From positions 1 through 56,860 of the forward strand of contig JAGUVT010000068.1 in assembly GCA_020062745.1 (NCBI GenBank): 56,860 nucleotides of DNA. Direction: 5' to 3'. Under the pieces are notes generated by a model that saw only the letters and a list, made by a program, of their open reading frames with translations, had not been told where the DNA came from and searched no databases. The position numbers and the translations under genes were made by a program. Positions 7,470 to 53,368 of this stretch are shown piece by piece. The DNA is from Deltaproteobacteria bacterium (lineage in GTDB: Bacteria > Bacillota > Desulfotomaculia > Desulfotomaculales > JAGUVT01). Each line of letters begins with the position of its first letter. The stretch's first letter is position 1.

Positions 7470-7553
7470 GTGACAAAACGGGTTTTTCAACGTCCCCATC
7501 AGTATTGCTATTTTTCAGGTTGCAGGATATTATTATAAGCAAAAGATATAAGT
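7470..7553 (+). repeat. promoter-bearing dispersed repeat, copy 1 (upstream of Rpn gene)
   Basis: This segment is nearly identical, in inverted orientation, to 49008-49080, and its right part also matches 53312-53368. It contains TTGCTA (7505-7510), a 17-base spacer and TATTAT (7528-7533), reading toward the Rpn gene 40 bases downstream. The left part (TGACAAAACGGGTTTTTC) resembles sequence next to the GTCATTG repeats. Confidence 0.65.
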
Positions 7554-44417: not shown

Positions 44418-44437
44418 AAGACGAAAGTCTTTTTTTG
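44418..44437 (+). terminator. short terminator after spoIIID
   Basis: AAGAC, GAAA tetraloop and GTCTT followed by T residues. The stem is only five bases, but the GNRA loop and T tract make it plausible. Confidence 0.45.
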
Positions 44438-44452
44438 TTTGGGAGGCTTTTG

Positions 44453-47400
44453 ATGGCCAGAAAACCGGTTTTTCTTCTTTTGCTGGTGTTTGCTTTTTTT
44501 ATTTTCGTGTCCGGGCCGTCGGCCGCTGGTTCCCGGTTGGCCTTCTTGAATGACCGGGCGGCCGCTGTGATCGGGGCCAGGCCCCTGGCAGTGCCGGATT
44601 TTGCCGTTCCCGGCGGCCTGACAGGAGAGGGTCAGATTATCGGCCTGGCCGACAGCGGCCTCGACGGCGGGCGGCTTGATGATATTCACCCCGATTTGCA
44701 AAGCGCCCCCGGCAAAGTACCGAAAATAGTGCTGCTCAAATCCTGGGCCGGCCGCGCCTTGCCCGATGACCCACTCGGCCACGGCACGCACATGGCGGCT
44801 ACCATAGCCGGTACTGGGGAGGCTTCCGGCGGCAAATACCGCAGTGTGGCGCCGGGCGCCAGCCTTTATTTCCAGGCCATTCTTAATAATCGAAATGAAC
44901 CGGAACCGCCTGCTGATTTATTTAACCTGTTTCAACCGGCTTACGATGCCGGTGTGAGGGTTCACGTCGACGGCTGGGGCGGCGGCCCTAATGCTTACGG
45001 TAAAAGTACTGCGCAAATTGATGAATTTGTCCGGCAGCGCCCGGATTTTCTGGCGGTCTTCGGCGCCGGCAACAGCGGCCCCGCCGCCGGCACTCTGACC
45101 AGCGAGGCCAACAGTAAAAACGCTCTGGTGATGGGCACCAGCGAGAACCCGCGGCCGGCTTTTGCTCCCGACGCCGCCGATGTAGGTCGGGTGGCTGCTT
45201 CCTCCAGCCGCGGCTCCACCGCGGACGGGCGCCTTAAACCGGACTTGCTGGCGCCGGCCTCGGCCGTAATTTCTGCCGTCTCGCGGCTGACGCAAAGCAA
45301 CTTCCCGGCCAACCCGCTTTATACCCGCATGGGTGGGACAAGCATGGTGGCGGCGGTGGCCGGCGGAGCGGCGGCCATTTTACGGGAGTATCTGCTGAAA
45401 GAAGAAGATGTGGTCAATCCTTCATCTGCATTGATGAAAGCGATTCTGATTAACGGCGCCCGCCCGCTTGAAGGGGGGCCGTCGAAAGAAGGGTTTGGCG
45501 TGATCGACCTGGCCGGCACGGTGCTGGCCCTGCGTGAAGATACGTTTTCTTACGTAGACGACAAGAGCGGACTGAAGGCCGGGGAGTTGCTGGCCTACCA
45601 GTACCGGGCGACTGACGTGAAAACCCCTTTGAAAGTGACCCTGACCTGGACCGATCCATCGTCGTCCGGCTCCCTGGTCAACAACTTGGACTTGATCGTG
45701 ACCGGGCCGGACGGAAAGAAGTATTACGGTAACCACTTCTTGCACCCGGACCGGCCGGACCGGGAAAACAACGTGGAGCAGGTCTATATCGCCTCTCCCG
45801 CTCCGGGTATCTATACCATAAGCGTGCAGGGGGCGGGCATAGCTGAAAATGCTGCTGCCGGTTCGCCGGCAGCGGCGCAGGATTTTGCCCTGGTTTACGG
45901 GCAGCCGTTGTACCGGGGAATAGTTGCGGATATGGCGGGCGAGGGTGAGTTTATGACGGCTGACGGGCGGTTTTTTGCCCTGCCGGCAGAGAAAATCAAG
46001 AGCGTGGCAGACGACCGGCTGCTGCCCGCGGGAACCCGGATTCAGCCTGGCGCAGACCTTTATCTCGGGCCGCGCCGGGCTTATGCGGTGGCCGGCACCT
46101 GGCGGGCCGGCGGCATTCAGGTGGTACCCGCTGGGGATAAACTGTTGTTCATGGAGGCCGGCGCTCAGGCCCGGGAAGGCGGTTTTTATCTCAATCAGGC
46201 GGCAAAAGACAGCTTCTGGCTGAACGGTTCCCGGATAAACGATATCAAAGATATTCCGCCGGGCGTGGAAGTTACGGCGGCGCTCAACCCTTCTTCCCAG
46301 ACTCTCTGGCAGGTTGAAGCGGCGTATAAGGAAAAAGAAGGTTTCCTGGAACGGGTCGATGCAAAGGAAAGGCAGATATGGCTTTTGAAAGACGGCCGGG
46401 GTTACCGGCTGTCTCTCCGGGCGGCTATTTCTTTTCTTGATCAGGTGGTTTATGCCGGTACGGCCGACGCTCCTTACGGCAGCGGTGAGATCGCAGATTT
46501 GGAAAGTCTTTTGCCGGGCCTTTCCGTAAGGCTGATTATTTCTCCCGCTACCGGTGAAGTGTTATACATAGCCGTGAAAAGACAGGTTGCCATGGGACGG
46601 CTCGGGGACATCGACCCGGCAGGGGAGAAACTGGCCTTTGATTCGGGTGCCGGCTATGGATTTCTACCGGGCATTTTAACCAGGCGGGACGATGTGGAGG
46701 TAACCCCGGCGGAACTCCGCCCGGGAGACTACCTGATTGCCCTCCTTCTTCCCGCTGAGAAAAAAATTATCGGAATGACGGCTTACAGCAGGTCAACCTT
46801 CGGCCGCATCCTGTACTTCAGCGAAAAGCAGAAGAGCCTCTACCTGGTTGATCACTTAAACCGCCTCCGCATGTTGGCTGTTCCTGATGATGCCGCTGTC
46901 TACCGCTGGAGCTTACCGGCCGAAAAAGCGTCTCTGACGGCAGGTGACTGGGTGCGCGTTTTTCTGGACCCGGCCGGCGAAACAGTGCGGCGGCTGGACG
47001 TTGCCGAGATTGCTGAAGAAGCTGCCGGCTTTGTGGATTTTTACGATCCGGCGGAAGGGATTCTCCATCTTTTTAACGGGTATTACCGGCTGACTCCAGA
47101 CGCACTGGTAATTAAAAACGGCTGGCGGGTACTGCCGGAAGACCTGCTTTTTGGCGAAAAAGCGGCTGTTACCGTTCTCGATTCGCCTCAGGGTAAAGTG
47201 GTGGTGTCCGTGACGGCGGAAACCGGCCGGCAGGCGCCTTTGCCGGAGCTTGACGTGTCGTCGGCATACCGGCAGGGCCGCCTGGCTATGGCCGGCCATA
47301 CCGGCGCCGGCCGGCTCTACCTGTACCGGGAAAACGGCCGCATGGAAAAAGTGAAGACAACAGGAGGGCGTTTTGCCATAAGCCTCGCTCTGGCGGAAGG

Positions 47401-48037
47401 AGAGCGGTCGGTGCAGCTGGTTGCCGTCGATAAAACCAGCGGCGGCGTGATTGGCCGGCAGATTGACCTGCCGGCGCCGCCGGCCGGAGTAAAATTTGCT
47501 GATCTCGCCGGCCGCCGGGATGAGGCCGATATCCTGGCAGTGGCGGAACAGGGAATTTTGACCGGCTACCCGGACGGCGCCTTCCGTCCCGATGCCCCGG
47601 TCAGCCGCCTGGAATTCACCGTGATGCTGGTGCGCGCCCTGGGATGGTTGCCGGAACCGGCGCCTGCGCTATCATTTACCGATGCAGACGCCGTTCCGTC
47701 CTGGGCTGCGCCGGCGGTGGCCCTGGCGCAGAAAAAAGGGTTGATTCTCGGTTACCCGGACGGCGCCTTCCGGCCCGGTCAGGCCATCAGCCGGGCCGAG
47801 GCGGCCATGCTGGTTTCACGCGTGCTGGCTGTCTTTGAGCGGGATTATGCCGGAGACGAACTGCCCTTTCTGGACCAGGGCGCCCTTCCGCTATGGGCCA
47901 GGGCTGCCGTCGCCCGCTCTTTTACAAGCGGCGTACTGATCGAAAAAACGCCGGGGTTTTTCTTACCCGGCGCCGTTGTCGCCCGCGCCGAAGCCGCCGG
48001 CATCTTAAACCGACTGCTCAACCGCTTGGTTCAGTAG
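44453..48037 (+). CDS. S-layer-anchored subtilisin-like serine protease
   Basis: A 1194-residue exported protein. A signal peptide (about 1-25, cleavage near GPSAAG) precedes an S8 peptidase domain (about 50-360). Its triad is Asp67 in GLADSGLD, His110 in GHGTHMA and Ser297 in GGTSMVAA. A P/proprotein-convertase-like beta domain follows (about 370-480), then a long region of unknown beta-rich repeats (about 490-1000). Three SLH repeats end it (about 1013-1060, 1078-1125 and 1138-1190, two with GYPDGAFRP), which bind wall polysaccharide. ATG 44453 follows GGGAGG. It probably processes surface or extracellular proteins. No propeptide is obvious before the catalytic domain. Confidence 0.9.
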   Translation: MARKPVFLLLLVFAFFIFVSGPSAAGSRLAFLNDRAAAVIGARPLAVPDFAVPGGLTGEGQIIGLADSGLDGGRLDDIHPDLQSAPGKVPKIVLLKSWAGRALPDDPLGHGTHMAATIAGTGEASGGKYRSVAPGASLYFQAILNNRNEPEPPADLFNLFQPAYDAGVRVHVDGWGGGPNAYGKSTAQIDEFVRQRPDFLAVFGAGNSGPAAGTLTSEANSKNALVMGTSENPRPAFAPDAADVGRVAASSSRGSTADGRLKPDLLAPASAVISAVSRLTQSNFPANPLYTRMGGTSMVAAVAGGAAAILREYLLKEEDVVNPSSALMKAILINGARPLEGGPSKEGFGVIDLAGTVLALREDTFSYVDDKSGLKAGELLAYQYRATDVKTPLKVTLTWTDPSSSGSLVNNLDLIVTGPDGKKYYGNHFLHPDRPDRENNVEQVYIASPAPGIYTISVQGAGIAENAAAGSPAAAQDFALVYGQPLYRGIVADMAGEGEFMTADGRFFALPAEKIKSVADDRLLPAGTRIQPGADLYLGPRRAYAVAGTWRAGGIQVVPAGDKLLFMEAGAQAREGGFYLNQAAKDSFWLNGSRINDIKDIPPGVEVTAALNPSSQTLWQVEAAYKEKEGFLERVDAKERQIWLLKDGRGYRLSLRAAISFLDQVVYAGTADAPYGSGEIADLESLLPGLSVRLIISPATGEVLYIAVKRQVAMGRLGDIDPAGEKLAFDSGAGYGFLPGILTRRDDVEVTPAELRPGDYLIALLLPAEKKIIGMTAYSRSTFGRILYFSEKQKSLYLVDHLNRLRMLAVPDDAAVYRWSLPAEKASLTAGDWVRVFLDPAGETVRRLDVAEIAEEAAGFVDFYDPAEGILHLFNGYYRLTPDALVIKNGWRVLPEDLLFGEKAAVTVLDSPQGKVVVSVTAETGRQAPLPELDVSSAYRQGRLAMAGHTGAGRLYLYRENGRMEKVKTTGGRFAISLALAEGERSVQLVAVDKTSGGVIGRQIDLPAPPAGVKFADLAGRRDEADILAVAEQGILTGYPDGAFRPDAPVSRLEFTVMLVRALGWLPEPAPALSFTDADAVPSWAAPAVALAQKKGLILGYPDGAFRPGQAISRAEAAMLVSRVLAVFERDYAGDELPFLDQGALPLWARAAVARSFTSGVLIEKTPGFFLPGAVVARAEAAGILNRLLNRLVQ

Positions 48038-48050
48038 GAGTTGGGTGTCA

Positions 48051-48159
48051 AACCCTGGTTCAAAAGAACCAGGGCCTGCGATGTAACTTTGGTCAGGAGT
48101 TTACCCGCTTCCAAAGTGCGCTTCCATGTAACTGCATACCTGTCTGGCGAATTCGTCAA
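48051..48159. repeat. duplicated block A (3' end of the MntA-HepT gene)
   Basis: These 109 bases match 50048-50156 with three differences. The block starts with a perfect hairpin (CCCTGGTTC-AAAA-GAACCAGGG, 48053-48074), which may terminate transcription of the minus-strand gene, and includes that gene's last codons. Confidence 0.85.
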
Positions 48160-48979
48160 AATCTTCTGGTTCCCCGGTTACTGCCCGGTAAACGGCTTCG
48201 TAGTCCAATCGCCAGTATACGTGCACTATGGCATTGCGCATGCCGGCCATGCCCTTTATGCGCCTGGCAAACGGATTGGTGATGAGACCTCTTTCCCCGG
48301 CCAGTTCAATCAAGTTTGTGGTTTCCAGTGCGCTTAAAGAAACCCCTTTTACGGCCAGAAAATGGCGGCAGATGTCCAGAACGCACTCTAAACATATGCG
48401 CAGATGGTGCACGCATAACTCGCGGGTGTCTTTATCGTCCATGAAGCCTTCAAAGGAATTAAACCTTTTACGCAGTTCCGCCAGCCGCTGGACGGATTCG
48501 TCCATTTTGGACAGGCATGTTTCCATTCTTTCGCGGCTTAATTTTCTTTCGGCCACCGAGAGCCCCTCCCTGCTTCGCTTTTGTAGGTGGTACCGGAACT
48601 CTTTTTTAAAGAACAAATAATCGCTGTAATCAAAAAAGGCTTCCATGCCGAACCTGGCGAAGGTATCCGGGCTGGCGCAGTAAAGCAGCACGCCCTTTAA
48701 TAAAGCTTCCATTTTTAGGGCAGGGTGGGCTAGATTGAGAACCGCCAGGTCCACGTTTTTTATTTTTATGATCCTGGTAAGGGCGGATAAGGTTTTAAGG
48801 TACCTGTTAAAGTCATAAGATGAGAATAAAACGGCAATATCTATATCACGTGTAGAGCGTATTTTCTGGTCGGTTGCGGAACCGAATAAAAAAGCCAGCT
48901 CCACGCCGTGTTGCTGAAAAATTTCGGAAAGCTTGTTCTCACGCCTGATGACTGCCCGGGCGGCAACGGTATTACTCAT
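48101..48979 (-). CDS. fused MntA-HepT type VII toxin-antitoxin protein
   Basis: A 292-residue single chain with two domains normally found in separate proteins. Residues 1-105 form an MNT-type minimal nucleotidyltransferase with GS at 33-34, Asp45, Asp47 and Asp77. Residues about 130-292 form a HepT/HEPN ribonuclease with the Rx4HxY motif as Arg248, His253 and Tyr255. In the known system MntA inactivates HepT by AMPylating the tyrosine of that motif. Both active sites look intact here. ATG 48979 is on the minus strand, with a promoter inside the dispersed repeat 36 bases upstream. A truncated copy of its 3' end lies at 50048-50156. Confidence 0.82.
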   Translation of the reverse strand: MSNTVAARAVIRRENKLSEIFQQHGVELAFLFGSATDQKIRSTRDIDIAVLFSSYDFNRYLKTLSALTRIIKIKNVDLAVLNLAHPALKMEALLKGVLLYCASPDTFARFGMEAFFDYSDYLFFKKEFRYHLQKRSREGLSVAERKLSRERMETCLSKMDESVQRLAELRKRFNSFEGFMDDKDTRELCVHHLRICLECVLDICRHFLAVKGVSLSALETTNLIELAGERGLITNPFARRIKGMAGMRNAIVHVYWRLDYEAVYRAVTGEPEDFDEFARQVCSYMEAHFGSG

Positions 48980-49007
48980 TTGATCTATCTTCTTTCATCA
49001 GTTTACT

Positions 49008-49080
49008 TGTTTATAATAATATCCTGCAGCCTGAAAAATAGCAATAATGACGGGGCTGTCGAAAAACCCGTTTTGTCATT
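49008..49080 (-). repeat. promoter-bearing dispersed repeat, copy 2 (upstream of MntA-HepT)
   Basis: On the minus strand it carries TTGCTA (49039-49044), a 17-base spacer and TATTAT (49016-49021), pointing at the MntA-HepT start 36 bases on. It matches 7470-7553 over about 68 bases with roughly seven differences. Confidence 0.7.
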
Positions 49081-49140: not shown

Positions 49141-49209
49141 ATAAAACCGACAGGCCGTCTTTGATTTCATCAAGCGTCAAAAAACAGTTCCTCCTCCATG
49201 ATCTGATCC
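49141..49209 (-). pseudogene. remnant of an RHH/PIN (VapBC) pair
   Basis: About 69 bases match 50701-50769, the junction of the intact antitoxin and PIN toxin. Read on the minus strand it keeps the antitoxin end DQIMEEELFFDA-stop and the toxin start (TTG, MTLDEIKDGL), then the sequence diverges. The frame closes after about 23 residues, before the first PIN aspartate, so no functional toxin is made. Confidence 0.75.
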
Positions 49210-49225: not shown

Positions 49226-49576
49226 TTATCTCAATAATTCGAACAGCCGTTTTAATTCATTTCCGGTAAGCTCTCTGTACCTGGCAATCCGTTTCGCCGC
49301 CGTTTTATAAGCCTCCAAATCTTCTCGTTTTCCAACGGTAACGATAGCCACGAAGACGGCCTTTTCTTCCAGCAGGTAAACCAGCCGGTATCCTTGCACA
49401 GCGACTTTCCTTAACCCCACCAGGTCGATGCCCAACTTTTCACCTAAAGGTTTTCCGTAGGAAAAAGGGTCAATTTCGAGTTTGGTTGCCGCCTTAAATA
49501 TTTTGTTGCGGATGCTTTTATCAAGGTTTTCGAGATCTTTCACTGCTTCCGGAAGCCATTTAACCGTCCACTGCAT
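49226..49576 (-). CDS. RelE/ParE family toxin
   Basis: A 116-residue protein with the small RelE fold: WLPEAVKDLENLDKSIRNKI at the N-terminus, then GLRKVAVQGYRLVYLLEE with the basic and aromatic residues used in mRNA cleavage or gyrase binding, then VAIVTVGKREDLEAYK. The closest group is RelE/YafQ-like mRNA interferases, but ParE cannot be excluded. It overlaps the antitoxin gene upstream by 17 bases and uses ATG 49576. The last twenty or so residues exceed a minimal RelE. Confidence 0.8.
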   Translation of the reverse strand: MQWTVKWLPEAVKDLENLDKSIRNKIFKAATKLEIDPFSYGKPLGEKLGIDLVGLRKVAVQGYRLVYLLEEKAVFVAIVTVGKREDLEAYKTAAKRIARYRELTGNELKRLFELLR

Positions 49577-49922
49577 CGTCCGGCATCCCTTCGAGCTCTG
49601 TACGGGTTACGCCGAACCGTTTTAGAACATCATCCATGTCTACTAGCGATTTTGGGGTTTTGGTATGCTCGACAAGGCGGCGGATCGCCAACACGGCATG
49701 AAAAAGCTCTTCCACTCTTTGCTCTTCCAGCAGCAGTTCCCTGTATTCGTTGATGTTAATAAGCACGGCTTCTACTTCCTGTCCTCTTGTAACGAAGATC
49801 GGGCGTTTTCGGGTCTTGTCCAGGTACGCCCCCAGATTTTTGCTTAGTTTAGACGAGGAAACCAACTGCCCCGGACTGAGCAAGACGGGATCATCTGGAT
49901 CGTTCATGGTTACTACACTCAT
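49560..49922 (-). CDS. Phd/YefM family antitoxin (partner of RelE-like toxin)
   Basis: A 120-residue protein with a Phd/YefM core: LVSSSKLSKNLGAYLD, then RPIFVTRGQEVEAVLININEY, split here as RPIFVTRGQE and VEAVLININEY. A longer helical C-terminal part should bind the toxin. ATG 49922 is preceded on the minus strand by AAAGGAGTC, and by a strong promoter with an overlapping inverted repeat. It is first in a two-gene operon with the RelE-like toxin. Confidence 0.82.
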   Translation of the reverse strand: MSVVTMNDPDDPVLLSPGQLVSSSKLSKNLGAYLDKTRKRPIFVTRGQEVEAVLININEYRELLLEEQRVEELFHAVLAIRRLVEHTKTPKSLVDMDDVLKRFGVTRTELEGMPDDAVDG

Positions 49923-49972
49923 TTCCTTAGCCAGACTCCTTTACGTAGATATTGTATGAATCCTTTGCGTAA

Positions 49973-50001
49973 ATTATACACCTTGAAATTACGCATTTCA
50001 A
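49973..50001 (-). promoter_or_regulatory. promoter and operator of the Phd/RelE operon
   Basis: On the minus strand: TTGAAA (49996-50001), a 17-base spacer and TATAAT (49973-49978). An inverted repeat TTGAAAT-TACGC-ATTTCAA (49983-50001) covers the -35 and most of the spacer, as expected for antitoxin autorepression. Confidence 0.7.
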
Positions 50002-50047
50002 CTCGGCAGCATGAACATCTGGAAAAATGCTGTGATAAATAAATACG

Positions 50048-50156
50048 AACCCTGGTTCAAAAGAACCAGGGCCTGCGATGTAACTTTGGTCAGGAGTTTA
50101 CCCGCTTCCAAAATGCGCTTCCAGGTAACTGCATACCTGCCTGGCGAATTCGTCAA
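50048..50156 (-). pseudogene. duplicated 3' fragment of a HepT-domain gene (block B)
   Basis: These 109 bases match 48051-48159 with three differences, and read on the minus strand give DEFARQVCSYLEAHFGSG-stop, the C-terminus of the HepT domain with one Met-to-Leu change. The downstream hairpin is also copied. No upstream coding part is left, so this is the end of a lost paralogue. Confidence 0.8.
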
Positions 50157-50168
50157 CGCGGCATGAGC

Positions 50169-50245
50169 GTCTATCCTGAAAATTAATCGCCACCTGTCTG
50201 TTGGCAGTAACCAGTAGTGTGACAGAGAACCGTCCCCTGGCTCAG
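50169..50245. repeat. 77-bp direct repeat, copy 1
   Basis: GTCTATCCTGAAAATTAATC through GAGAACCGTCCCCTGGCTCAG is the same, as far as I can read, as 51127-51203. The two copies flank the RHH/PIN pair, so the pair could have arrived or been duplicated as a unit, or could be lost by recombination. Confidence 0.85.
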
Positions 50246-50255
50246 GAATTAGGAA

Positions 50256-50741
50256 TTAGGGCTTGAAAACAGTAATTTCCTCTATGTTGTCAAAGTCTGT
50301 ATCTGAAGTTATAAGGTTGATACAATCTGATTTTTGCATGGCGGCAATCAGCAGGGAATCGTTTGTTAACAATCCATGCTTCTCTCTCACCTTCTGGCTT
50401 AACCGGCAGTCTTCAATACTGCAGGGGATTACCTGGATTCCCATGGCGGGAATTTTCAGGCCGCAGGTATAGTCGCTCAACCCCCTCACAATTTCCGGGT
50501 GTTTCTTTAGTTTCCCGGCTGTATTTCCGGGCTGGATAAAACCTTTATGAACCGCCTCAATCGTCATCAGCCGGTGTATTACCTCCAGCACCGTCTGTAC
50601 CGTGGTGGTTCCTTTAAGTGATCCTCTTTCACAGCGCTCCAGAAAGCGGGAGCATTCCTCTGAGATGCCCGTGAAATGATAAATAAAAATATTTGCGTCG
50701 ATAAAAACCGGCAGGCCGTCTTTGATTTCATCAAGCGTCAA
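50256..50741 (-). CDS. PIN-domain (VapC-like) toxin
   Basis: A 161-residue PIN ribonuclease. The acidic residues are visible in VFIDANIFIYHF (Asp), VLEVIHR (Glu), LLTNDSLLIAAM (Asp) and ITSDTDFDN. I start it at TTG 50741 on the minus strand, eight bases after GGAGGAGGAA, overlapping the antitoxin end by 11 bases. The frame is open further upstream inside the antitoxin, but that part is not PIN-like. A dead copy of the start lies at 49141-49209. Confidence 0.83.
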   Translation of the reverse strand: MTLDEIKDGLPVFIDANIFIYHFTGISEECSRFLERCERGSLKGTTTVQTVLEVIHRLMTIEAVHKGFIQPGNTAGKLKKHPEIVRGLSDYTCGLKIPAMGIQVIPCSIEDCRLSQKVREKHGLLTNDSLLIAAMQKSDCINLITSDTDFDNIEEITVFKP

Positions 50742-50967
50742 AAAACAGTTCCTCCTCCATGATCTGATCAACCACGTTTTTAGGAGCAGGAATGACGCCC
50801 CGGGTGGCTTTGACAACAGAACCGCTCAGTTCATTGTTTTCTGCTTCCAGGTATTTTTCTAAGGCTTCCTCAATTACTTCGTTGATTTTTTTACTTCTGC
50901 GCAAAGCCAGGGACTTTGCTTTTACTATTAATGGTTTTCTAAGTGAAGTGCCGATTTTTTGTCGCAT
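50731..50967 (-). CDS. ribbon-helix-helix antitoxin (VapB/CopG-like)
   Basis: A 78-residue protein with a ribbon-helix-helix-like N-terminal half (LIVKAKSLALRRSKKINEV, then IEEALEKYLEAE) that should bind DNA as a dimer. A flexible C-terminal half ends IMEEELFFDA and should bind the PIN toxin. ATG 50967 has a GGGGTG site upstream and a consensus promoter with an inverted repeat. The gene order is antitoxin then toxin. Confidence 0.75.
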   Translation of the reverse strand: MRQKIGTSLRKPLIVKAKSLALRRSKKINEVIEEALEKYLEAENNELSGSVVKATRGVIPAPKNVVDQIMEEELFFDA

Positions 50968-50987
50968 AAAAATTCACCCCGCATAAT

Positions 50988-51022
50988 ATTATATTGTCTA
51001 GATATTATTATGTCAATCTAGA
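50988..51022 (-). promoter_or_regulatory. promoter and operator of the RHH/PIN operon
   Basis: On the minus strand: perfect TTGACA (51011-51016), a 17-base spacer and perfect TATAAT (50988-50993). Inverted arms TCTAGAT and ATCTAGA (50997-51003 and 51016-51022) are 12 bases apart and overlap the -35 and the spacer, which fits RHH antitoxin autorepression. Confidence 0.8.
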
Positions 51023-51126
51023 AAAACCGTCGAAAAATCATTTGATAATATTTTTGAATTAAACAAGCTTGTGGAACCGGATGAACCGGATGGATACAGG
51101 AATTATGTATTGTGTCCCCGGAATTT

Positions 51127-51203
51127 GTCTATCCTGAAAATTAATCGCCACCTGTCTGTTGGCAGTAACCAGTAGTGTGACAGAGAACCGTCCCCTGGCT
51201 CAG
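51127..51203. repeat. 77-bp direct repeat, copy 2
   Basis: Second copy of 50169-50245, in the same orientation. It lies just before the promoter of the AbrB/PIN operon. Confidence 0.85.
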
Positions 51204-51235
51204 TCCAAATATTTGAGGCGGTTAAAAAAGAAGTG

Positions 51236-51290
51236 TTGACAGTCCTTATCAATATGATTAGAATGTAAGAAGTAATGCATGCCTTACTTC
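51236..51290 (+). promoter_or_regulatory. promoter and operator of the AbrB/PIN operon
   Basis: TTGACA (51236-51241), a 17-base spacer and TAGAAT (51259-51264). An inverted repeat GAAGTAA / TTACTTC (51269-51275 and 51284-51290) lies at the transcription start, suiting an AbrB-type autorepressor. Confidence 0.75.
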
Positions 51291-51307
51291 AGGGGGAGTG
51301 GTTTGTT

Positions 51308-51586
51308 GTGGAAAGGATGAAGGTTACTGCCAAGGGCCAGGTGACATTACCAAAAAACTTGAGAGAAAAACTTAAAATTAAAGAGGGAAATTACCTGGAG
51401 GCCTTTATTAGAAGGAACGAACTGGTAATCAGGCCTCTTCCCGACAGGCCGGAAAGGGAGCTTTTACTTGAATATTGCAAGAAAAACGCATCCCGGCGGG
51501 TTGGTATTAATGATGCCCGCCGTATTCTTTCGCGGGTACCTTTTTCGCTGTCCAAGAGGGTTCGCCAGTTGCGGGAGGAGAGGTAA
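51308..51586 (+). CDS. AbrB/MazE-type swapped-hairpin antitoxin
   Basis: A 92-residue protein. MKVTAKGQVTLPKNLREKL is a clear AbrB/SpoVT N-terminal DNA-binding motif, followed by KIKEGNYLEAFIRRNELVI. The C-terminal half is basic and should contact the toxin. I choose GTG 51308 after AGGGGGAG; the upstream in-frame ATG at 51275 lies within the operator. It overlaps the PIN toxin by one base (TAATG). Confidence 0.82.
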   Translation: MERMKVTAKGQVTLPKNLREKLKIKEGNYLEAFIRRNELVIRPLPDRPERELLLEYCKKNASRRVGINDARRILSRVPFSLSKRVRQLREER

Positions 51587-52023
51587 TGGCATCATATTAC
51601 CTCGATACCAGCGCCCTTTTTAAAAGATATGTGCAGGAAGAAGGTTCGGATGTTGTAAACTCTCTTTTTGATAAAGGAGAACCCCTTTTTATTGCGGCGA
51701 TAACCCTCTGCGAGGTAACGTCCAACCTGCGCAGGCTCGTTGACGTTGATGAAATAATAAAAGGTGAAGAGTTTGCTGTTTTGCGGGCTACCTTTCTTGG
51801 AGATGTGGGGGATACCATCCTGGAAGTAATAGAATCGACAACTGAAATAATACTCTCAAGTCTGGATCTTGCTTCGAAAAAGTATCTTACCCCCATAGAC
51901 GCCATACAGCTTGCCACTGCCCTCTCCCTGGCGGAGAAACCGGTATTTGTTTGCTCGGATCAGAAATTACTCCGGCTTGCTGTTGAAAATGGTCTTGCTG
52001 TACTTGACCCAACGGGGCCGTAG
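51586..52023 (+). CDS. PIN-domain (VapC-like) toxin
   Basis: A 145-residue PIN protein. YYLDTSALFKRYV gives the first Asp, ITLCEVTSNL the Glu, LTPIDAIQLATAL the next Asp, and VFVCSDQKLLRLA the last. These are all four positions of an active PIN ribonuclease. The ATG shares one base with the antitoxin stop, so production is coupled. It is the second PIN toxin of the island and differs clearly in sequence from its neighbours. Confidence 0.85.
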   Translation: MASYYLDTSALFKRYVQEEGSDVVNSLFDKGEPLFIAAITLCEVTSNLRRLVDVDEIIKGEEFAVLRATFLGDVGDTILEVIESTTEIILSSLDLASKKYLTPIDAIQLATALSLAEKPVFVCSDQKLLRLAVENGLAVLDPTGP

Positions 52024-52125
52024 TTTTGTCCAGGTGATCCGATTGTCACTATTGTTGTTTAAGGTTCAAATTAGGCACCTCCTTAAACAATGAATTATGT
52101 AGTTATGTTATAGCATATATTCCTC

Positions 52126-52154
52126 TTTACGCAGAAGACAACTCATGCTAAAAT
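52126..52154 (+). promoter_or_regulatory. possible promoter of the HTH/PIN operon
   Basis: TTTACG, a 17-base spacer and TAAAAT, ending 33 bases before the antitoxin ATG. GCATAT and ATATGC motifs around it may be operator half-sites. Confidence 0.4.
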
Positions 52155-52187
52155 ATGCAATAAAATATTATGGAGGTATGTAGCGTT

Positions 52188-52529
52188 ATGGCGCAGCAGA
52201 ATGAATTTTACACGATACCGGAAATTGCAAAAAAACTGAAGGTTTCTCCTTCTACCGTATGGCGCTGGGTAAAGGCAAAAAAACTGCCGGCCTGCCGGGT
52301 GGGCGAAAAATCGGTCCGGGTACACGAAAGGGATGTGGTGAAATTATTGCAGCCGCTTCATGTTTCACTCGCAAAGGCGCCGCGCGGAATAAGCCGGAGA
52401 GACCTGGTTTTAAAGATCGCGGCCTTGCATAAAGCAATCCTGGAAAGACGGAACGGGCAGCTCCTACCCGATTCGGCCGGTGATCTGTCCGTTTTGAGGG
52501 AGGAACGGGATGGCTACGGTTTGCGTTGA
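52188..52529 (+). CDS. excisionase/MerR-type HTH protein, likely antitoxin
   Basis: A 113-residue protein. Residues about 5-50 form an excisionase-like winged helix-turn-helix (FYTIPEIAKKLKVSPSTV, then WRWVKAKKLPACRVG). The rest is helical. This helix-turn-helix type is used as the antitoxin in some PIN systems. ATG 52188 follows TATGGAGG; the earlier in-frame ATG at 52170 overlaps that site. It overlaps the PIN gene by 20 bases, supporting a TA role over a phage excisionase. Confidence 0.72.
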   Translation: MAQQNEFYTIPEIAKKLKVSPSTVWRWVKAKKLPACRVGEKSVRVHERDVVKLLQPLHVSLAKAPRGISRRDLVLKIAALHKAILERRNGQLLPDSAGDLSVLREERDGYGLR

Positions 52530-52956
52530 CGCTTCTTTCGTTTTAAAGTGGTTTTTGCCGGAAGAACATTCTGATTGCGCCGGGGCTGCTCTTTTGGACT
52601 ACCAGGAGCAGAAAGTTAACTTTGCCGCACCGGGTCTCTTGCCGTTTGAGATAATTTCCGTATTGCGGCGCAAGGTTTATTTCGGCATTCTCCTTCCTTC
52701 AGAAGCAGATGAAGTGTTTTCCTGCTTTATATCCATGAAATTCAAGCTATTATCCGGGAGTCGTCTTAACAGGCAGGCCTGGCAATACGCTGTGTACTTT
52801 AACCGGCCCAATGCGTATGACTGTTTTTACCTGGCGGCGGCAAAAATACTGGCTGTCGGCCTGTGGACGGCAGATCAGAGATTGTATAACGCTACCAGGG
52901 ATAAGCTTCCGTGGGTGAAGTGGGTCGGGGAATACGGCCAGGCCTCTTTGACATGA
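52510..52956 (+). CDS. PIN-domain toxin
   Basis: A 148-residue PIN protein of the group found with HTH antitoxins. VCVDASFVLKWFLPEE gives the first Asp, LLPFEIISVL the Glu, YDCFYLAAAK the third acidic residue and LWTADQRLYNA the last. The ATG overlaps the upstream gene by 20 bases. The likely activity is RNA cleavage held in check by the HTH partner. Confidence 0.8.
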   Translation: MATVCVDASFVLKWFLPEEHSDCAGAALLDYQEQKVNFAAPGLLPFEIISVLRRKVYFGILLPSEADEVFSCFISMKFKLLSGSRLNRQAWQYAVYFNRPNAYDCFYLAAAKILAVGLWTADQRLYNATRDKLPWVKWVGEYGQASLT

Positions 52957-52999
52957 TTTCAGAAGGTGGATGCTTTTGCCAAAGATGAAATCATGACGT

Positions 53000-53269
53000 T
53001 TACAAGGTGCCCAGCGACTCATAACGTGGCTCCTGATTAAGATCAATATTGTTAATAACTGGAAATGTATGCCTTAGTTTTAATCCCAGAAGGACCCATT
53101 CTTCCAATGTGGAACGCAACTCCATTTCACACTCCCTTAATGTTCTTCCAAATGCGACCACGCCTGTACATACAGGAATTCGCCCGGCAAAGGTACCGTC
53201 TTCCAGTTTATCGTACATGGCCTGAGCCATACACTGATTGAGGTAATCTGATAAGACAAAAGAACTCAT
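53000..53269 (-). CDS. HicB-like antitoxin without HicA
   Basis: An 89-residue protein. LEDGTFAGRIPVCTGVVAFG and the following TLRECEMELRSTLEEWVLLGL form the partial RNase H-like HicB fold. The usual HicA toxin gene is missing: only 43 bases separate its stop from the PIN gene on the other strand. ATG 53269 has a weak ribosome site. The promoter lies in the third copy of the dispersed repeat. It may be an orphan antitoxin that neutralises a toxin elsewhere. Confidence 0.72.
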   Translation of the reverse strand: MSSFVLSDYLNQCMAQAMYDKLEDGTFAGRIPVCTGVVAFGRTLRECEMELRSTLEEWVLLGLKLRHTFPVINNIDLNQEPRYESLGTL

Positions 53270-53311: not shown

Positions 53312-53368
53312 TTTTGCTTATAATAATATCCTCTAACCTAAAAAATAGCAATACCAAAGGGGGCTTTA
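53312..53368 (-). repeat. promoter-bearing dispersed repeat, copy 3 (upstream of HicB)
   Basis: On the minus strand: TTGCTA (53346-53351), a 17-base spacer and TATTAT (53323-53328), reading into HicB 53 bases on. The core is shared with 7470-7553 and 49008-49080, but the outer GACAAAACGGG part is missing. Confidence 0.65.

Follow-up and report, generated by a model that had tools for sequence, protein, structure and literature searches.

In type VII toxin-antitoxin (TA) systems of the HepT/MntA type, the nucleotidyltransferase MntA uses ATP to AMPylate a tyrosine of the ribonuclease HepT, a modification that matters more than binding, and the Shewanella complex is built from two MntA and six HepT chains (PMC7641770). 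The alpha4 helix of MntA is the docking site for the HEPN protein in two-gene systems, and MNTs without this helix failed to neutralise, with the exception of a Legionella MNT that also lacks it (PMC11586414). Fused forms are on record as well. In Anantharaman et al. 2013 (PMC3710099), DUF86/HepT is already tabulated as 'occasionally fused to MNT', and the HEPN domains of such fusions are described as typically without RNase residues. An earlier sequence-only reading of the DNA analysed here, according to which known systems use two proteins, was too strong in the light of that table.

Here we describe a fused MntA-HepT gene within a stretch of 56,860 nucleotides (contig JAGUVT010000068.1, positions 1 to 56,860; hereafter the window). 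Coordinates without a further label refer to the window, and the gene and all features inside it lie on the minus strand.

Domains and predicted structure of the fused gene

The open reading frame at 48101-48979 runs through 292 codons without an internal stop and would encode a protein of 33.7 kDa. Pfam places a Polbeta nucleotidyltransferase domain at residues 15-103 (48671-48937; 9e-18) and a HepT-like HEPN ribonuclease domain, PF01934, at residues 159-281 (48137-48505; 5.8e-22). Both NCBIfam equivalog models for type VII score above their cut-off of 60 bits each (HepT_toxin 75.8 bits, MntA_antitoxin 71.2 bits), and the HepT_toxin model is matched by all 13 aligned members of the clade of fused relatives described below. 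Comparisons with the PDB, whether of sequence or of fold, gave chains of solved HEPN-MNT complexes, both HEPN and MNT, as the top matches. By alignment position, the MntA half holds the GSX10DXD motif, with G33 and S34 at 48878-48883 and D45-x-D47 at 48839-48847, together with a third catalytic Asp, D77 (48749-48751), which corresponds to D71 of Shewanella MntA. The RX4HXY motif of the HepT half is formed by R248, H253 and Y255 (RNAIVHVY, 48215-48238). Judged by its sequence, the frame unites an MntA nucleotidyltransferase and a HepT ribonuclease, both of them complete. Pfam, NCBIfam and the residue positions agree in this with the sequence-only reading, which had placed both enzymes and all of the residues just named in one 292-residue chain.

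Structure prediction with AlphaFold2 on 53 sequences gave a pLDDT of 91.7 (90.2-91.7 over five models) and a pTM of only 0.63. A helix is confidently predicted at residues 104-137 (48569-48670; pLDDT 90-98 over most of it), the HepT part opens with a helix at residues 149-170, and the stretch between them, residues 138-148 (EGLSVAERKLS; 48536-48568), is loose, with pLDDT below 50 at residues 140-143. A shallower prediction from 13 sequences had given a continuous helix over residues 104-170; it was discarded, since with the deeper alignment the helix is interrupted at 138-148 and the confidence is much higher. By position and prediction, helix 104-137 would correspond to alpha4, the docking helix of MntA. 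It covers residues 105-130, where a cleavable linker had been proposed; the inter-domain linker is placed instead at about residues 138-148.

Conservation and genomic surroundings of the fusion

Within the window's order, nine of 113 genomes carry the same fusion, namely the window's own and eight others whose fused genes are 54-79% identical to that of the window over their full length. A pattern scan added fused relatives from Dehalococcoidia (L040-L042) and Methylomirabilota (L039, L044), the last of which ends at a contig edge, and a copy from an unclassified bacterium (L043) is broken by an insert. L037 was left out as a separate phylum, its gene position being the same as that of G062 of the window's order. 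A query with the single protein against genome contigs returned no match, whereas the alignment-based scan did find relatives.

In a tree of HepT domains that also held 36 separate HepTs, the 13 rows of the clade group together on a long stem with support of 100/99. G33, S34, D45, D47, D77, R248 and H253 are invariant across the nine orthologs, and more distant members keep the same catalytic residues where the region is present, with a shorter loop between GS and DxD. The loss of activity in both domains of related proteins that the sequence-only reading had raised is not what the clade presents, since the residues are kept throughout, except for one ortholog with Cys in place of the acceptor Tyr. 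Estimates of dN/dS are 0.09-0.27 for the whole gene, below 0.3 for every domain and 0.05-0.19 for the linker where estimable; one pair showed no linker changes at all. Together, the alignments, the tree and the substitution rates show these MntA-HepT fusions to be one old, supported clade in which both active sites, as read from their residues, are kept under purifying selection. Fusions also occur in other HepT lineages, namely L087 (1471-2382, a frame of 303 residues) and L089 (715-1872, a frame of 385 residues with a long linker rich in Pro, Gly and Ser).

The distribution is patchy, as in type VII systems, with nine carriers among 113 genomes of the order and neighbours that differ. Elsewhere the fusion gene is accompanied by an overlapping DegT aminotransferase gene, an asparagine synthase gene, cas6 directly upstream or Uma2, each in one or a few genomes, and no conserved partner gene was found among these neighbours. 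In Dehalococcoidia (L040:4093-4944) the fusion gene comes right after cas6, and the two ORFs touch or overlap by a few bases. No clade member was detected in the phage, plasmid and viral-contig collections that were searched, and a search of a defence-system library gave weak nucleotidyltransferase matches only. We infer that the fusion gene acts as an independent mobile cassette.

In the window, the gene stands at the edge of a TA island (49226-53269) that comprises ParE/Phd (49226-49922), PIN/RHH-like (50256-50967), MazE/PIN (51275-52023), HTH/PIN (52170-52956) and UPF0150, HicB-like (53000-53269). Duplications internal to the island (49143-49208, repeated at 50704-50769, and 50169-50245, repeated at 51127-51203) look like remnants of rearranged modules. 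Right after the stop codon of the fusion gene there is a perfect 9-bp inverted repeat, CCCTGGTTC-TTTT-GAACCAGGG (48053-48074, minus strand), which terminator prediction did not flag. Repeat comparison also revealed a 109-bp segment at 50048-50156 on the minus strand, 97% identical to the last 18 codons, stop and hairpin of the gene, and this remnant is evidence for a second copy of the fusion, now lost. Upstream of the gene lies a 72-bp intergenic repeat (49007-49078) with further copies at 7471-7542 and 53314-53353; their identity is 88-100%, and within the genome they were found only on the window contig. On the other side, a 1200-aa subtilase with S-layer homology domains (44435-48037) is convergent with the fusion gene.

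Two relatives carry visible damage. The insert in L043 (3987-4151) is a MITE-like element of about 150 bp that sits directly ahead of the RX4HXY motif. Its terminal inverted repeats are 20 bp long (17/20), and the target duplication measures 8 bp (GCTGATAA). In L045 from Dehalococcoidia (1606-2083), a deletion has removed most of the MntA half, and the HepT that is left, 67% identical, has no Shine-Dalgarno sequence before its first ATG and has Trp in place of G243; it is apparently a silenced toxin relic.

A predicted nested HepT start and its consequences

Inside the linker, each of the 15 clade members whose junction is intact carries, at the residue-142 column, a start-type codon placed 7-8 nt after GGGAGG or GGAGG. 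In the window these are a GTG (48554-48556) and a Shine-Dalgarno (SD) core, GGGAGG (48565-48570); the codon is GTG in most members, TTG in G062 and ATG in L039-L042. Residue 142 is where a separate HepT would begin, and initiation there would give, nested in frame, a free HepT of 151 aa and 17.5 kDa (48101-48556). The residues encoded before the start vary (REG, GEG, KEG, KGG, QGG) and the start residue itself may be V, L or M; the DNA signal is constant. An ATG at M152 was also considered as the internal start and rejected, as relatives have M, V or I there and codon 142 is the conserved one.

Several measures single out the same site. A scan of all columns finds SD plus start at residue 142 in 11 of 11 lineages and at any other column in at most two of the 11. 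The top six-codon windows of synonymous conservation in the gene fall within residues 140-147, with observed/expected ratios of 2.05-2.14 (mean 1.12, sd 0.22). Resampling of synonymous codons gave combined P values of about 4e-5 with all lineages treated as independent and 8e-4 with five well separated ones; as Met has a single codon, the ATG lineages weigh little in this statistic. Pairing with the anti-Shine-Dalgarno sequence, for which the general bacterial form was used as the host 16S 3' end was not found in the assembly, reaches -10.8 to -14.0 kcal/mol in the 15 clade genes and ranks the nested site first or second among the in-frame start-type codons of each gene; in the window it is stronger than at the gene's own start (-11.7 versus -5.8 kcal/mol). 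L043, L044 and L087 were examined only after the pattern had been recognised, and all three show the nested start. In L087, an independently formed fusion, the strongest of the internal ribosome-binding sites (RBSs), at -12.0 kcal/mol, is the one at the HepT start. Predicted RNA folding gives the internal RBS no unusual accessibility (5th-38th percentile of gene positions in seven of 10 genes), so initiation may be weak or rely on upstream translation.

As the start signal is kept in 15 of 15 intact-junction relatives, one gene in one frame probably gives both the fusion and a free toxin. The sequence-only reading had expected that free toxin would require a special trigger, a need that falls away because the conserved internal RBS and start would make HepT directly. 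How such an arrangement could have formed may be seen in the two-gene relative L017, in which the HepT RBS, if translated in the frame of HepT, gives REGLG immediately ahead of a TTG start. The likeness suggests that the fused linker REGLSV is a former hepT ribosome-binding site made protein by a small frame change. Such a change would be easy, since 87 of 102 two-gene pairs have a HepT frame that opens ahead of the MntA stop.

We therefore regard it as likely, on the strength of the conserved start and catalytic residues, that the locus is a type VII TA system collapsed into one frame, predicted to give a self-AMPylating fusion and a free HepT of 151 aa. Ribosomes starting at two sites would make MntA-HepT and HepT from one mRNA, and the HEPN dimer would bring the two products together. 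The nucleotidyltransferase domain, made first, would use ATP to place AMP on Tyr255, either in its own HEPN chain or in that of a partner, and the AMP would hold the ribonuclease off; self-AMPylation by the intact fusion is a reasonable expectation from the residues it retains. Unmodified HepT would cut RNA and stop growth, and new chains could stay unmodified when ATP is low, when the nucleotidyltransferase is reduced or blocked, when initiation is skewed or under phage takeover, with some de-AMPylase as an alternative route of activation. The nested start would furnish extra HepT chains, as in the Shewanella complex, and would be useful because a pure 1:1 fusion cannot form an assembly of six HepT and two MntA. 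Given that inactivation is covalent, losing the labile antitoxin alone would free no modified toxin even in a two-gene system, and fusion may thus lose less than it seems. We also lean towards a fuller version, in which the toxin:antitoxin stoichiometry is set by the relative frequency of initiation at the two sites and at least one other fusion has arrived independently at the same solution.

The strongest competing explanation holds that the 292-aa protein is the only product, its internal RBS a relic, and that the self-AMPylated ribonuclease serves as a sensor, as the sequence-only reading had suggested, or as an RNase under regulation. The conservation of the fusion and of its active sites fits it, as does an internal RBS that is not unusually unpaired, and CapRel-SJ46 offers an example of a fused TA that works as an autoinhibited phage sensor (PMC9712102). 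A relic, however, would not retain SD and start in all 15 genes despite changes in the encoded residues, nor would it place the peak of synonymous conservation at the nested start, and the independent fusion L087 keeps a nested start too, for which reasons we consider a single product unlikely.

A second alternative concerns the acceptor tyrosine, which is present in about 111 truly separate HepTs with RX4H and missing from none. It is absent from three fused proteins, L007 (the Desulfofundulus ortholog) and L089, which have Cys, and L087, where it is missing and the GS motif is also damaged. The loss in three of 16 fused proteins against none of 113 gives a Fisher P of 0.0016 with kinship ignored, the 113 on the separate side including L044 and L045, truncated clade members, and leaving 111 truly separate. 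We take this as no more than a lead, namely that AMPylation may be less needed once toxin and antitoxin are tethered. It could be carried further, to a bound MntA domain that mainly neutralises HepT by itself, with tyrosine and AMPylation no longer essential, as losses in three separate fused lineages would allow. Against this, Tyr255 and all nucleotidyltransferase residues are kept in the rest of the clade, binding alone is insufficient in Shewanella (PMC7641770) and L087 may simply be decaying; we hold the idea to be improbable. Beside RX4HXY the clade has invariant residues of its own (M247, A250, W256, Y260), and the second tyrosine, Y260, occurs in none of 36 separate HepTs.

Domestication, in which the nucleotidyltransferase would modify another protein or a small molecule and the HEPN part would serve as a substrate-binding domain, finds some encouragement in the gross architecture, which is that of aminoglycoside nucleotidyltransferases and other fused MNT-HEPN proteins, and in the fate proposed for the latter by Anantharaman et al. 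2013 (PMC3710099). The RNase residues R, N and H are nevertheless invariant in 13 of 13 clade rows, which rules out an inactive HEPN domain, conservation is highest in the HepT half (65-86% identical to the window versus 39-77% for the nucleotidyltransferase), the two-domain arrangement does not match that of ANT enzymes on superposition (rmsd about 14-26 A) and a conserved partner gene is lacking, all of which makes this proposal very doubtful. A frameshift or assembly error that merged two genes, which the sequence-only reading had envisaged and which a single indel could produce where the HepT frame is open before the MntA stop, is refuted: the junction holds no stop or error, the homologue search found the same fusion in independent genomes, and identical architecture in more than 10 independent assemblies goes with a conserved linker and low dN/dS.

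Comparison with known systems

On the reading that we prefer, a type VII pair in one frame with a nested toxin start, a TA pair can merge into one gene with neither enzyme lost, and the toxin's own start inside the fusion suggests how the collapse is tolerated. The covalently linked enzyme-substrate pair would make the control of AMPylation and de-AMPylation in type VII systems addressable in one protein. Annotation pipelines would label such a gene a plain fusion and overlook its predicted second product.

The closest relative is the type VII HepT/MntA system of Shewanella oneidensis (SO_3166/SO_3165), with which the window gene shares the same two domains, the GSX10DXD motif with a third Asp, RX4HXY, an order with MntA first, a predicted alpha4 docking helix and a HepT start that adjoins the end of MntA. 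It differs in being one continuous frame instead of two neighbouring genes, with separate HepT as a predicted product, in having the HepT RBS and start nested in the fusion, and in M247, A250, W256 and Y260 at the motif. ANT/KNTase enzymes likewise combine a nucleotidyltransferase and a C-terminal HEPN-like helical domain in one chain, but their HEPN domain lacks the RNase residues and serves substrate binding, and the domain arrangement does not superpose. CapRel-SJ46 also unites toxin and antitoxin in a single polypeptide, although its domains are unrelated, a RelA/SpoT-like toxin being N-terminal and an antitoxin/sensor C-terminal, and its conformational autoinhibition is lifted by a phage capsid protein, in contrast to the covalent modification proposed here (PMC9712102). 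In-frame internal initiation, backed by conservation of SD and start, is known from bacterial internal-start N-terminal proteoforms, among which, in the available part of that report (PMC11005335), HepT/MntA does not figure.

As two separate genes are replaced by one open frame, we file the window gene as a variant of type VII, in one frame with a nested toxin start, and not as an ordinary two-gene member. The MntA-HepT architecture itself was already known. Measured against the MNT-DUF86 fusions of Anantharaman et al. 2013, as far as the available part of PMC3710099 describes them, which includes no internal start, the window clade differs in keeping the RNase residues and, by its sequences, in being a conserved lineage in which neither active site is impaired.
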